A DNA stretch of 64,000 nt from Bacteroidetes bacterium HGW-Bacteroidetes-8 (GTDB lineage Bacteria > Bacteroidota > Bacteroidia > Bacteroidales > UBA932), in the NCBI GenBank assembly GCA_002840895.1, contig PHCZ01000001.1, forward strand, positions 310,001-374,000, in the 5' to 3' direction. This document shows positions 2,987 to 49,345 of the stretch, in pieces (positions within the stretch are counted from its first letter, which is position 1; each line of letters begins with the position of its first letter). The notes beneath the pieces were generated by a model that was not told the DNA's origin, searched no databases, and saw only the letters and a program-made list of their open reading frames with translations. A program made the translations under genes and the position numbers.

Positions 2987-3304
2987 TTACATATTAGTTA
3001 CCGGCAGTAGATCCAGTCCAACCAGAACGCGTTCTGTGTTTGAGAGATCTCCTATTATTTTACGAACAGGTACCGGTAATTTCCTTACTAATGTTGGTAA
3101 AGCAAAAATTTGGTCATCGGCTCCCAACTGTGGATTTCTCAATAGGTCAATAACTTCAATTGTATATTCACCATTTAATTGCTCTTCACATATCTGTTTC
3201 AAATTATTAAACGCGGTGAGGGCTTTTGGCGTTTGTCCGGCAACATATAAACGAAGCACCCACAAGTCATTTACTGTCTCAACTTTCTCTTTTTTATGTT
3301 TCAT
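2987..3304 (-). CDS. kaiB: KaiB-like protein (first copy)
   Basis: The protein has 105 residues, close to cyanobacterial KaiB. It carries [57 protein letters not shown] and LVGLDLLP. It starts 11 bp after the kaiC stop, in the same operon. It is closer to canonical KaiB in the AGQTPK segment than the second copy, where the same place reads TGSTCR. The likely role is binding the CI ring of the adjacent KaiC; no KaiA gene is visible in the window. Confidence 0.92.
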
Positions 3305-3315
3305 AGGGCATCAAT

Positions 3316-5052
3316 CTATTTATCTTTAATTTTTTTAATGTTTACATTTTCAATTTGGGCGTGTCTGCTCTCTGCCATCTGCAGTTTATCCAATTTTAGC
3401 CGTTTAATCTGATTTTGTTCTATCTCAATCATTTTAATCGCTTCAGACTCTTGCGATTCAAACTCAAAATGTAATGCAGATATTTGAGCCTTGAGCGCAT
3501 TGCGTTTTTGTTCAATCTCTCTTTTTTTACGTTCTACATCCTTTTTTCGAATCAAGAGCTCTGCACTCTCTTTAGCCTCCTGAGCAATACGAGCCGAACC
3601 GGTTAAGACCCCTTTTGATCCAATATATGCTTCACGTAATTCAACACCGTGATCTGTTAAAATGAATTCACGTATTTGGTTGGAGTTTGCCATTCCTCTT
3701 GATTTGAGAACATACATTCCTCTGTTACGCTCTCCGCTTAATTCAATATCGCGCAATAGTATCCAGGTATCTATCAATGATGATATTCCGGCTTCTGAGC
3801 TCTCTAATGGACTCTCATTCGATGTAAGACTTGTAAAGAGAGCTGTAATTTGATTTGCCTTAAGAAAATCAACAATTCGCATCAGCATTGTTTTTATTTC
3901 AATATCCTTATCACTTACTACAAAAGTATTTATTGGATCAAGAATAACAATACTTGGTTTGAAGGCATTTACAGCTTTATGTGTAACAGCTAAATGCATC
4001 TCCAGTCCATAAAGTGTCGGGCGTGTAGCGTGAAATTGCAAAAGCCCTTTTTTTACCCAGGGTTCTAAATCAATACCTATTGAGAGCATATTGCGAATCA
4101 GCTGATTTGGAGACTCTTCAAAACAAAAGAAGAGTACTCTTTCACCTCGTTTACACGCTGCCTCTGCAAAGTGAGCTGCAATACTCGTTTTCCCAACACC
4201 TGCAGTACCTGAGACAAGCACAGTGCTTCCACGGTAATACCCTTTCCCTTCAAGCATTTTGTCAAGGGCAGATATACCACTTGAGACTCTTTCATTTGAT
4301 ACAACGTGTTCTAATCCCAATGAGGTTACAGGCAAAACGGAGAAGCCGGTTTCATCTATTAAAAATGGATACTCATTGGTGCCGTGCATAGATCCGCGAT
4401 ACTTAACAATACGTAACCGCCGTGTAGATGTCTGTTCGTTTACTCTGTGATCAAGCATAATCACACAGTCTGATACATACTCTTCCAGACCCTGCCTGGT
4501 TAATTTATCGTCACCCCTTTCACCTGTTATAATTGCAGTTACACCTTTCTCCTTAAGCCAGCGAAACAGACGCCTTAGTTCTGCACGTAAAATCAATTGA
4601 TTTGGCAAACCTGCAAATAGTGATTCAATTGTATCCAACACAACTCTTTTTGCACCTATTGAATCGATTGCATAGCCCAGTCGTATAAAAAGAGCCTCCA
4701 GGTCGTACTCTCCGGTCTCCTCTATTTCACTGCGTTCGATATGGACGTGGTCAAGTACAAGTTTCTTTCTTCGAATCAGATCTTTAAGATCAAATCCAAG
4801 TGAAGCAACATTTATTGTCAACTCTTCATTTGTCTCTTCAAAAGACATAAACACACCCGGTTCATTGAACTCAGTTGCACCGCGTACCAGAAACTCTATT
4901 GCAAAAAGAGTTTTACCGCAACCAGCGCCTCCGCATACTAGAATTGGCCTACCTTTAGGAACTCCTCCTCCGGTTATTTCATCAAATCCCTTAATTCCGG
5001 TTGGTGACTTAGGAAGTCTCTTCATTGATAATTCGTGATCAAGTTTTTTCAT
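3316..5052 (-). CDS. kaiC: KaiC-like double-RecA ATPase
   Basis: I chose the ATG at 5052 (578 residues). The ORF track extends to 5157, but those 35 extra residues look unlike KaiC and contain a perfect inverted repeat that fits a regulatory region. There are two RecA-like domains. CI has Walker A GGAGCGKT (41-48) and the catalytic pair E72/E73. CII has GTAGVGKT (282-289) and E312/E313. The CII segment SEAGISSLIDT aligns with the Synechococcus phosphosite segment TDSHISTITDT, giving Ser419, Ser424 and Ser425 in place of T426, S431 and T432. Residues from about 480 to 578 form a charged coiled coil instead of the short KaiA-binding tail. It is first in an operon with two kaiB genes, a PAS gene and a kinase. 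It may act as a KaiA-independent timer or as a non-circadian signalling ATPase; which of these is not decidable here. Confidence 0.93.
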   Translation of the reverse strand: MKKLDHELSMKRLPKSPTGIKGFDEITGGGVPKGRPILVCGGAGCGKTLFAIEFLVRGATEFNEPGVFMSFEETNEELTINVASLGFDLKDLIRRKKLVLDHVHIERSEIEETGEYDLEALFIRLGYAIDSIGAKRVVLDTIESLFAGLPNQLILRAELRRLFRWLKEKGVTAIITGERGDDKLTRQGLEEYVSDCVIMLDHRVNEQTSTRRLRIVKYRGSMHGTNEYPFLIDETGFSVLPVTSLGLEHVVSNERVSSGISALDKMLEGKGYYRGSTVLVSGTAGVGKTSIAAHFAEAACKRGERVLFFCFEESPNQLIRNMLSIGIDLEPWVKKGLLQFHATRPTLYGLEMHLAVTHKAVNAFKPSIVILDPINTFVVSDKDIEIKTMLMRIVDFLKANQITALFTSLTSNESPLESSEAGISSLIDTWILLRDIELSGERNRGMYVLKSRGMANSNQIREFILTDHGVELREAYIGSKGVLTGSARIAQEAKESAELLIRKKDVERKKREIEQKRNALKAQISALHFEFESQESEAIKMIEIEQNQIKRLKLDKLQMAESRHAQIENVNIKKIKDK

Positions 5053-5098
5053 TAGGTTTTTTAAATAATAGATAGTTATTTCATTATGGCGAATAAAG

Positions 5099-5130
5099 GT
5101 TGTAAAGAATTGAGAAATTTTCTTTACAAC
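5099..5130. promoter_or_regulatory. Perfect 11-bp inverted repeat upstream of kaiC
   Basis: GTTGTAAAGAA (5099-5109) and TTCTTTACAAC (5120-5130) are exact reverse complements separated by 10 bp. This sits about 47 bp upstream of the chosen kaiC ATG and about 125 bp upstream of the divergent deacetylase gene. The size and spacing suit a dimeric regulator binding one face of the helix. I find no perfect TAnnTTTG box beside it. No regulator gene is identified. Confidence 0.5.
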
Positions 5131-5255
5131 ATTTTTATTAGTAGTTACACAATTCACTCATTTGTTGAAAACGGGGATATGTTATTAAATTTATTTTTCA
5201 TAAATTTATTGAAAAGTATTTGGTTCTGAGGATAGTAATTTAAACACTAACAATC

Positions 5256-19681: not shown

Positions 19682-19688
19682 GTTTTTG

Positions 19689-20087
19689 TGGAGATGGGCG
19701 GATTCGAACCGCCGTCCAAACAAACCATCCAAAGACTTTCTACACGCTTATCCTCTCTACGGTTTTGGTCCTTAAGCTGCCGAAAGGCAGGCCACTTAAG
19801 GCTTATCCTCTTAATACTTAGGAGACTTTAGAGGCATAGATCTCCGCATCCGTACTTTAATGATACCCCATATACCGAAACATAGACGGCGCAAAGATCG
19901 GCGGGATACTCGTCGCGACCGGACCTAGCCGGCGGCAATTAAGGAATTAAGCAGAGCCTAATTACGCAGCGAGTGCATAGTTGTTGTTGCCTGTTATGGC
20001 TTGTACTCCGGGATTTACGAGCCGGGGATACAACGCTCGACGTGCTTACCTTCCGATTGTGAATGCTGTCAAAACCAAAACATCCCC
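19689..20087 (-). ncRNA. ssrA: tmRNA
   Basis: On the minus strand the 5' end GGGGATG pairs with CATCTCC at the 3' end (one G-U), forming the tRNA-like acceptor stem. The T-arm reads GGCGGTTCGAATCCGCC. The tag frame reads GGC AAC AAC AAC TAT GCA CTC GCT GCG TAA, giving GNNNYALAA and a stop; after trans-translation the tag would be (A)GNNNYALAA. The terminal CCA does not appear to be encoded; the bases after the discriminator read CAAAA, so CCA would be added afterwards. The length is about 399 nt, as expected. tmRNA with SmpB rescues stalled ribosomes and marks the product for proteolysis. Confidence 0.97.
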
Positions 20088-47274: not shown

Positions 47275-47820
47275 TTGCTTGAAAAGGGAAGAGACGATGC
47301 CTTTAGCGAAATCTATGAACGCTATTGGGAGAGGCTATTTATTTATGTTTACAGCCGGACATCCTCTTCTGATGTAGCATTTGAAATAACTCAGGATATT
47401 TTTGTGTCACTTTGGCAAAGAAGAGGTGAGGTGGTTTTTCATACATCACTATCGGGATATCTTTATACATCTGTCCGTTATAGAATTATCCGTCATATAA
47501 ACAGCTGTAAATTAAGAGAGAATTACTTCAGAGATTTTTTAGCATTTAATCAACTCAGCAGTGACAATTCAAATGAGGAAGAAATTAATCTGAATCAGCT
47601 TAATGAGGCAATCGAAAAGAGTGTACGGGAATTACCAAAGAAATGTCAGGAGATCTTCCGAATGAGCAGATATCAGAATTTGTCTATAAAAGAGATCTCA
47701 GTGAAATTGAATATTTCTCATAAAACTGTAGAAAATCAGCTAACGATTGCGCTGAAACACCTTCGAAAATCTTTAGGTGAGTTTATGCTTACACCATTAT
47801 TTTTTCATCTTTTTTTTTAA
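47275..47820 (+). CDS. ECF sigma-70 factor lacking an ATG start
   Basis: The listed frame (181 residues) begins at TTG 47275. It has sigma region 2 (AFSEIYERYWERLFIYVYSRTSSSDVAFEITQDIFVSLWQ) and region 4 (CQEIFRMSRYQNLSIKEISVKLNISHKTVENQLTIALKHLRK), typical of Bacteroidota ECF factors that partner FecR. Family-like sequence continues upstream (HTDNELALLLEKG), and the frame is open to 47182 without any ATG. An ATA at 47233 sits where MKQIKNHTDNEL would be expected. The true start may be ATA, ATT (47242) or this TTG. The gene is divergent from fecR, whereas sigma and fecR usually run together. Confidence 0.88.
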   Translation: MLEKGRDDAFSEIYERYWERLFIYVYSRTSSSDVAFEITQDIFVSLWQRRGEVVFHTSLSGYLYTSVRYRIIRHINSCKLRENYFRDFLAFNQLSSDNSNEEEINLNQLNEAIEKSVRELPKKCQEIFRMSRYQNLSIKEISVKLNISHKTVENQLTIALKHLRKSLGEFMLTPLFFHLFF

Positions 47821-47827
47821 AATAAAA

Positions 47828-47866
47828 AAAAGGAAGACTAATAAGTGATCTGGCCGTCCTTTTATT
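47828..47866 (+). terminator. Terminator of the sigma gene
   Basis: AAAGGAAGAC pairs with GTCCTTT, with a bulged A, followed by TTATTATTA. It lies a few bases after the sigma stop codon. Confidence 0.5.
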
Positions 47867-47890
47867 ATTAACGGCTAAATCTATCAGTTA

Positions 47891-48250
47891 AGGAAAACCT
47901 ATTTGCAATTCTCCCCTGCGAGACCGAAATAGCGAAAACCTCCGCAACAATTAGGGCATATTCAGCCACAAACCTTTTTTTACAAAAGAACTCTCACATC
48001 AGGAAAGCTAATCTCCCGCGGGCTGTTAAATAACCCTCTCCGCAGCAATAGGGCACACTCAGCCGGAAGGAGCGAACTTGTGAGCGGATGAGGATGGACG
48101 TGCCCGATGTGCGGAGGGGGGTATAAGACCGCAACGTGTAAAATATGCTTTCCTGCTGTGAGAATTTCAACAACGATGAAGATGGATTTGTTCGGTGTGC
48201 GAAGGTTTTCGCAGGCCTGTAAAGTTACATAGCAGCAAATAGGTTCCGGA
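47891..48250. repeat. Long imperfect inverted repeat (two facing ~165-bp elements)
   Basis: This fills most of the 570-bp gene-free stretch 47821-48394. Blocks on the left recur on the right as reverse complements in mirrored order and similar spacing: AACCTATTTGC (47896), GCGAAAACCTCCGCA (47932), CTCTCACATCAGGAAAGC (47991) and CTCCGCAGCAATAGGGCAC (48038), against 48235-48245, 48198-48212, 48148-48164 and 48100-48117. Within the left arm the CTCCGCA-GGGCA block itself occurs twice. The stretch is richer in G and C than its AT-rich flanks. No convincing gene is present. It may be a diverged non-autonomous element or a structured RNA. Confidence 0.75.
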
Positions 48251-48270
48251 CGGACAGAGTTAACAGCTAT

Positions 48271-48310
48271 AAAAAAAAAGAGGATGACTAATTGCTTATT
48301 AGTCATCCTC
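48271..48310 (-). terminator. Strong intrinsic terminator
   Basis: GAGGATGACTAAT (48280-48292) and ATTAGTCATCCTC (48298-48310) form a perfect 13-bp stem with a 5-base loop; the minus strand continues into nine T. It ends transcription of the minus-strand gene at 48395. Confidence 0.92.
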
Positions 48311-48385
48311 GTTGCCTACCAACCATTACTTAAATTAAACTAACCAAAATTTATTTATTGTTTTTTTGCTGGTAAGGACTTTTTC
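48311..48385 (-). repeat. Recurrent 3'-UTR element, copy 2
   Basis: The minus strand after the stop of the exported protein reads TTACCAGCAAAAAAACAA, then TTTTGGTTAGTTTAATTTAA and GTAATGGTTGGTAGGCAACG before the terminator. It shares TTACCAGCAAAA, GGTTAGTTWATT and TGGTWGG-type blocks with copy 1 at 38037-38095. Confidence 0.5.
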
Positions 48386-48394
48386 CTGAAGTTA

Positions 48395-49345
48395 TTAGTA
48401 GTTAATTGCAAGAAGCATTATCAGGTTGTATACATCCCACTCAGAGGCAATCTTGTAATCTCCAATCTTATCTGCAAGGATATCTGTAGATTTTAGCAGA
48501 TCTTTCTTGTCAATTGTGAATCCCTCAGCTACAAGATTGGTAACCGCAAGCTGAGAATTGATGTTGTAAACATCGTATGTACTCTCAAGTTTATTTAGGA
48601 TATTGAAAGTTACATTTGATGTAGAGTAGTCAAAGTACCATTTGTTGTCATACTCTCTGTAGTTAACAACGTAGTCTGCAGAGACCATCTTTACATCTGA
48701 ATGTTTAGGCCTGCTCTTGAAAAATCTTGTATAGGCCCAGCCCCTCTTTTCCACATTCATAGAGTACTCTACCTTGGCAATTGCAAGAGATTGTGATTCA
48801 ATGTACAGTTTGCCTCTAAAGAGCATCTCTCCATCCGCATACTTCTGGTTGAAATTAACCACATAGAACTTCTTGCCGGCTATTTCGGTTGGTTTTGAGT
48901 ACTCAAAGTCGTAGTTGTCAGCAATGTTGTAGATATCACTTCCAAGAAACGGGTACTTAATAACATCTAACTGAAGCGATGTAACCGGACCACCCTGAAG
49001 TTTAATCATTAGCGGGTTCATAAGTTTAGCGTCACAATTACCACGTGCATCCCTAACGGCAACCTGATCTGTTTTAGGAGTTAAGTAAGATGCCTTATTT
49101 ATATCAAGGATTGCCTCATTTACAGAGAGACAATCACTATTTTTGGATAGACGCTCTTTATAAAAAGCGTTCATCTGATTGTCAGACTTAGGGTAGTTTA
49201 CGGAGATTTGTTTCAAAGCACGCTGCACCAAAGTGGTGGCGCCTATTTTTGGATTGCTCAGGTCCGATGAGGCAGCGTTTTTTGCCTCGGCATTAATAGA
49301 GATTGTTAAAATGGCTACAAGCAGGAAAAAGATTTTTGTTTTCAT
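48395..49345 (-). CDS. Exported protein of unknown function
   Basis: The protein has 316 residues with a signal peptide (KTKIFFLLVAILTISINAEA). The body (LVQRALKQISVNYPKSDNQMNAFYKERL, EAILDINKASY, YVVNFNQKYADGEMLFRGKLYIESQSLAIAKVEYSMN) resembles the C-terminal half of Bacteroidota proteins that normally carry an N-terminal carboxypeptidase-like regulatory domain, which is absent here. Probably periplasmic or associated with the outer membrane. It is a single gene with its own terminator. The upstream gap 49346-49541 is very AT-rich, and I see no clear promoter box in it. Confidence 0.75.
   Translation of the reverse strand: MKTKIFFLLVAILTISINAEAKNAASSDLSNPKIGATTLVQRALKQISVNYPKSDNQMNAFYKERLSKNSDCLSVNEAILDINKASYLTPKTDQVAVRDARGNCDAKLMNPLMIKLQGGPVTSLQLDVIKYPFLGSDIYNIADNYDFEYSKPTEIAGKKFYVVNFNQKYADGEMLFRGKLYIESQSLAIAKVEYSMNVEKRGWAYTRFFKSRPKHSDVKMVSADYVVNYREYDNKWYFDYSTSNVTFNILNKLESTYDVYNINSQLAVTNLVAEGFTIDKKDLLKSTDILADKIGDYKIASEWDVYNLIMLLAINY

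Follow-up and report, generated by a model that had tools for sequence, protein, structure and literature searches.

A nested hairpin in a Bacteroidales genome as a probable composite of non-autonomous palindromic mobile repeats

The window analyzed here, a stretch of 64,000 nucleotides from the genome of Bacteroidetes bacterium HGW-Bacteroidetes-8 (contig PHCZ01000001.1, positions 310,001 to 374,000), contains an inverted repeat at 47866-48270 that is most probably a composite of palindromic non-autonomous mobile repeats, belonging to a genus-restricted family of which the copies would spread as folded single-stranded DNA and nest at the tip. The family is previously undescribed and has at least 16 scattered copies, including the one in the window. 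Its members are long, imperfect hairpins with subfamily-specific arms and a conserved core of approximately 40 nt at the tip.

A preliminary description of the window had placed a palindrome at 47891-48250, and its inverted blocks as well as shuffle tests established that this structure is real and far beyond chance. The outermost paired blocks are AACCTATTTGC (47896-47906) and GCAAATAGGTT (48235-48245), followed by GCGAAAACCTCCGCA (47932-47946) with TGCGAAGGTTTTCGC (48198-48212) and by AACTCTCACATCAGGAAAGC (47989-48008) with GCTTTCCTGCTGTGAGAATT (48147-48166); GGGCA and TGCCC flank the core at 48058-48098. The suspected long hairpin was borne out by folding, which was far better than that of dinucleotide shuffles for both RNA strands (z of -6.1 and -7.4) and for DNA (z of -5.4), with none of 100 shuffles folding as well. 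The G+C content of the palindrome is 46%, as compared to 35% in the flanks, in agreement with what had been noticed before, and 40% in the window. The surrounding gene-free gap (47821-48394, 574 bp) is indeed the largest, if the tmRNA gene (19688-20087) and two kaiB-like genes are taken into account, and it is bordered by genes for an ECF-type sigma factor on the left (47275-47820, forward strand) and a secreted protein of unknown function on the right (48395-49345, reverse strand). The kaiB-like genes (2987-3304 and 2612-2962) adjoin a KaiC-like gene (3316-5157), and together with a gene for a PAS-domain protein (1917-2615) they form a kai-type cluster in a Bacteroidales genome (1917-5157, all on the reverse strand; named from the protein sequences by eye). 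No credible open reading frame belongs to the palindrome, which, as first thought, is not an insertion sequence.

The idea that the palindrome consists of two facing copies of one 165-bp element had to be abandoned, as alignment to the copies in relatives revealed stacked layers of different palindromes instead. Weak outer D-type arms enclose a C-type palindrome (AACCTATTTGC...GCAAATAGGTT), in which a 207-bp insert with an A-type palindrome has taken the place of the 22-nt tip. From left to right, a degenerate D-type arm (47866-47895) is followed by the left C-type arm (47896-47967, forward), which ends in one half of the C core, GGGCATATTCAGCC (47954-47967), and aligns with single-layer C copies in genomes G016, G008 and G009; both arms together align without a break to L158, a copy in G016 with a C-type element inside D-type arms (D[C]). 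The left junction, ACAAACCTTTTTTTACAAAAGAA (47968-47990), begins exactly after the CAGCC of the C core. Next are the left A-type arm, CTCTCACATCAGGAAAGC...GGGCACA (47991-48057, forward), with a close match in L026 of G016 and related copies at many sites, the core, CTCAGCCGGAAGGAGCGAACTTGTGAGCGGATGAGGATGGA (48058-48098, forward), which is kept across the genus while arms differ, and the right A-type arm, ending in GCTTTCCTGCTGTGAGA (48099-48163, forward). The right junction, ATTTCAACAAC (48164-48174), recurs in the same or similar form in other nested copies. It leads into the right C-type arm (48175-48245, forward), which starts with the other core half, GATGAAGATGGA, ends in GCAAATAGGTT, and aligns with C copy L158. 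The right D-type arm (48246-48270) is strongly degenerate; it was delimited by comparison with an empty site in G016, and its similarity to D arms is weak and was judged by eye. Family D (GGTCAATAACAACGGCTTCCGGTGTTAGC...) is a separate palindrome family with a different interior, of which the arms elsewhere enclose C-type elements, and which stands alone downstream of a tRNA gene in L212 (approximately 1090-1400, G016) and in L191 (G008).

The precision of the nesting is apparent from the points where alignment is lost. Alignment with single-layer C-type copies of G016, such as L158, covers 47866-47967 and 48175-48245, and stops exactly after CAGCC and before GATGAAGATGG. Other nested copies, in G000 and G009, have the same two breaks behind CAGCC and ahead of GAGGATGGA, those of G009 with differing junction sequences. 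The tip of an existing hairpin may thus be a preferred landing or exchange site, at which stacks would be built up. Tip-targeted insertion is deduced from end states, and some of the stacks could also have arisen by tandem duplication or by exchange at the core; moreover, the junctions of one species may share a single origin.

The arms also vary in ways that suggest rearrangement after insertion. Arms of different subtypes are combined in L027 and L036, which indicates that arms were exchanged, and one-sided tandem expansion of arms is seen at L015, L031, and L075. Arms would lengthen or shorten by tandem duplication after insertion, and may be swapped between copies by recombination. The one-sided expansions would also fit an origin of the long palindromes by local inverted duplication and enlargement by slippage, without transposition. 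However, the same sequences occur at unrelated places throughout the genome as well as in further species, orthologous sites being empty, and a purely local origin, being contradicted by these dispersed copies and explaining only size changes after insertion, is very improbable.

Comparison with relatives supports the mobile repeat interpretation. The window site is empty in the close relative G016, which reads ...GACCGCCCTTAGATTATTAAAAAAAGAGAGGATGAC... without the insert; its sequence runs from ...GATTATTAA straight into AAAAAGAGAGGATG, by which the left limit of the insert falls within the TTATTAA at 47865-47871 and the right limit in the A-run following 48246-48270. The insert therefore covers approximately 47872-48270, so that the extent first assigned to the palindrome was correct in place and slightly too narrow. 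Presence differs at six of the 11 loci compared (the window and ten further loci): at L005, L006, L012, L013, and L022 the flank compared in G016 carries no core element, which for L006 and L022 is also the case in G008. At L003, L007, L008, L009, and L010 some element is present in G016, sometimes of another type, for example D[C] at L010 versus A layers in G000. A clean target-site duplication of the window copy was not found, TATTAA and TATAAA being the best candidates. With respect to DDE-type miniature elements (MITEs) in the strict sense, which combine terminal inverted repeats shared with an autonomous element and a target-site duplication, inverted ends are present, without a clean duplication at the window site and without an autonomous partner among the candidates searched. 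In the broad sense the family is MITE-like, as dispersed copies without a protein gene are combined with empty sites in relatives, and the preliminary suggestion of a non-autonomous element family is thereby supported. A larger MITE was observed at L006 (approximately 1330-1660), with CTCTAAAGTTCCCCAC and GTGGGGAACTTTAG as its ends and, apparently, a target duplication of 8 bp (GCAGAGAC); it encloses a Y1-type unit and a core palindrome, and its site is empty in G016 and G008. The alternative suggestion of a chromosome-organising site gains no support from the copies, whose number and place vary between close relatives and whose orientation is mixed; no orientation bias was apparent in the complete genome G010, as judged by eye with the origin not mapped.

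Within its own 2.9-Mb genome, the palindrome (blastn, query 47860-48265) has 25 matches at approximately 16 to 17 sites, several of which sit at contig ends, where assemblies break. The arms, whose absence elsewhere had been named in advance as speaking against an element family, were found in this genome as well as in relatives. A covariance model (R1) of the apical core, built from alignment A1, was used to search the genus, family and phylum. It matched in 13 genomes of the genus, with one weak match among the remaining genomes of a set of 200 from the family and another weak one among 395 other genomes of the phylum. When R1 and blastn matches are taken together, the core is present in approximately 16 of the 25 species of the genus that were covered, with 13 core copies in G010, 8 in G016, and 20 in G009, and the family is essentially restricted to one Bacteroidales genus. 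Carriage by phages or plasmids was not detected in IMG/VR (two core patterns) or in plasmid records. Exact 19-mer matches in a Verrucomicrobia metagenome-assembled genome and in Pseudomonas (L054 and L056) lack the core and were attributed to chance. The copies are intergenic, and rarely lie between divergent genes (3 of 27 scored copies, the others being between convergent (11) or co-directional (13) genes). Core palindromes lie just downstream of the same gene, encoding a protein with a LepA-like C-terminus, in G000, G008, and G010 (L013, L050, and L091); this site, which has no palindrome in G016, is a possible insertion hot spot.

What unites the copies is the core of approximately 40 nt (CTCAGCCGGA...GAGGATGGA), which is kept throughout the genus while arm sequences differ completely. 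Its form common to all subfamilies is approximately (C)TCAGCCGGAGGGAGCGAAGCGACTGAGGATGGA, with a short GC stem that reads GGGCA/TGCCC in most, and it can also be given as CTCAGCCG...GAGGATGGA on the short GGGCA/TGCCC stem at the hairpin tip. The arms outside the core are unrelated between species, yet complementary. In the A subfamily (17 copies, alignment A2) 96% of cells pair, and the covariation score of 0.139 exceeds the 0.073 obtained in shuffles (0 of 500 as high) and the values of at most 0.045 obtained when the arms are slid. Two covariation measures do not exceed shuffles, and the seven pairs changed on both sides are no more than in shuffles, which points to linkage of the arms and not to many independent events.

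These features bear on the earlier guess of a structured RNA, in which the hairpin would be transcribed and the conserved core would bind a protein. Such a family would fit the complexity of the hairpin, its conserved internal loops, the pairs of which both sides have changed, and the strongly conserved, non-palindromic core. A hairpin kept as RNA in the core orientation would need more G:U than A:C opposites, whereas 39 G:U-type versus 61 A:C opposites were counted in 38 well-paired copies, 37 versus 58 in distinct contexts (p approximately 0.04), and 108 versus 141 in a wider copy set, which leans against an RNA read in this direction. The same counts favour a transcript of the opposite strand, but only weakly. 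Furthermore, no Rfam family matches the palindrome, close relatives differ in the number and sites of their copies, and some copies have mismatched arms or a single arm only. A transcribed functional RNA is less likely than a mobile repeat family, and a structured non-coding RNA family is unlikely altogether.

If the family is mobile, its copies would be moved in trans, as folded single-stranded DNA, by a still hypothetical nuclease or transposase that reads the core. Neither an autonomous copy nor a dedicated enzyme was found among approximately 50 Y1 transposase loci, at close core pairs, or in a search for reverse transcriptases in three genomes. The copy-rich genomes G000, G010, and G016 have no PF00078 match, and a retron or reverse-transcriptase origin was rejected on that basis. 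An autonomous copy with its gene between two cores was likewise rejected, as the close pairs examined enclose other genes (L177, L178, and L180), including an HTH-type regulator region (L178) and ordinary genes (L180). At L177 (656-2343; G000:C1, approximately 27.4-29.1 kb) an AbiEii/AbiEi-like toxin-antitoxin pair, recognized by eye, lies between two palindrome half-copies that share a direct repeat of approximately 50 bp, and the orthologous site in G016 (L038) is a palindrome without the toxin-antitoxin pair.

The copies might alternatively be REPINs that belong to a Y1 (REP-associated tyrosine) transposase of the genus itself. Y1 genes are present in 22 of 25 genus genomes, and mobilization of palindromes in trans by such RAYT-type enzymes has been proposed for classical REPINs (PMC3116915). 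Many of these genes are flanked on both sides by a unit of approximately 100 bp, consisting of two inverted motifs of approximately 22 nt (L132, L133, L137, L138, L139, L140, L152, L153, L154, L156, and others); the motif differs per transposase type, representing a rich RAYT/REPIN-like radiation. At 5 of approximately 20 sites (flanks of L005, L006, L012, L003, and L015), a unit of this type and a core palindrome are no more than approximately 200 bp apart, which by a rough estimate exceeds expectation even if only intergenic DNA is counted. However, each flanked Y1 gene has its own motif, these motifs are distinct from the core and from the A, C, and D arms, and no cognate enzyme could be assigned. 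Moreover, the core was absent within approximately 1.5 kb of all of approximately 50 Y1 loci, A, C, and D arms were equally absent beside them, and the core alignment has no GTAG tag, which makes an origin as REPINs of these transposases rather unlikely.

The family works like REPIN-, ERIC- and MITE-type repeats. By the features tested it is neither a GTAG nor a CGTC REP, and it is set apart from ERIC by description. GTAG REPs and REPINs with their RAYT (PMC3116915, PMC3733652) are likewise short palindromic, protein-free, intergenic, present in many copies, and probably moved in trans, but their REP units measure 20-40 bp with a GTAG foot, whereas the present elements are single hairpins of 120-400 bp, each with one core at its apex. 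CGTC-tagged REPs, for which the literature holds no dedicated transposase, are also dispersed palindromes, and some REP dimers have been reported inside larger palindromes (PMC3733652). In those REPs CGTC is followed by a fixed stem of 8-9 bp and a loop of 4-5 nt, whereas in the core alignment CGTC occurs in some subtypes only and the stem does not directly follow. BrickBuilt, a MITE of Porphyromonas gingivalis, shares membership in the Bacteroidota, intergenic location, approximately 19 copies, and a modular build with tandem units, but has 23-nt direct repeats between leader and tail, small inverted ends, and no long hairpin (PMC4596501). ERIC sequences resemble the family as imperfect intergenic palindromes of 100-250 bp in a group of related species, often with an unknown enzyme (reviewed in PMC10969869). 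By description, the whole-element sequence is the family mark of ERIC, whereas here the core alone is common across species. Apex nesting is not known from ERIC. YPAL, Correia, and RPE are long palindromic MITE-like repeats of the same kind.

Dispersed palindromes without a known enzyme, such as CGTC-REPs and ERIC, are an old open question. In this genus the core is kept while arms are rewritten, and the same loci are empty, single-layer or nested in relatives. The window palindrome, as a hairpin nested in a hairpin tip, is a testable case of repeats that would insert into each other. Assembly breaks at such sites in the genus genomes may be due to the palindromes as well. As a tentative and rather speculative proposal, the core could be recognized by a genus-encoded enzyme, with cleavage at the foot of the tip hairpin (directly behind CAGCC and in front of GAGGATGGA) and insertion of new palindromes at precisely this position; the tip of one element would serve another as a safe place to insert, by which hairpins of several layers would arise, and any change in the arms would be tolerated provided that complementarity is preserved. 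Both a specific recognition site and two break points are predicted and can be tested in vitro; if the core-cutting enzyme reading is true, the family would represent a new class of self-nesting hairpin mobile element.
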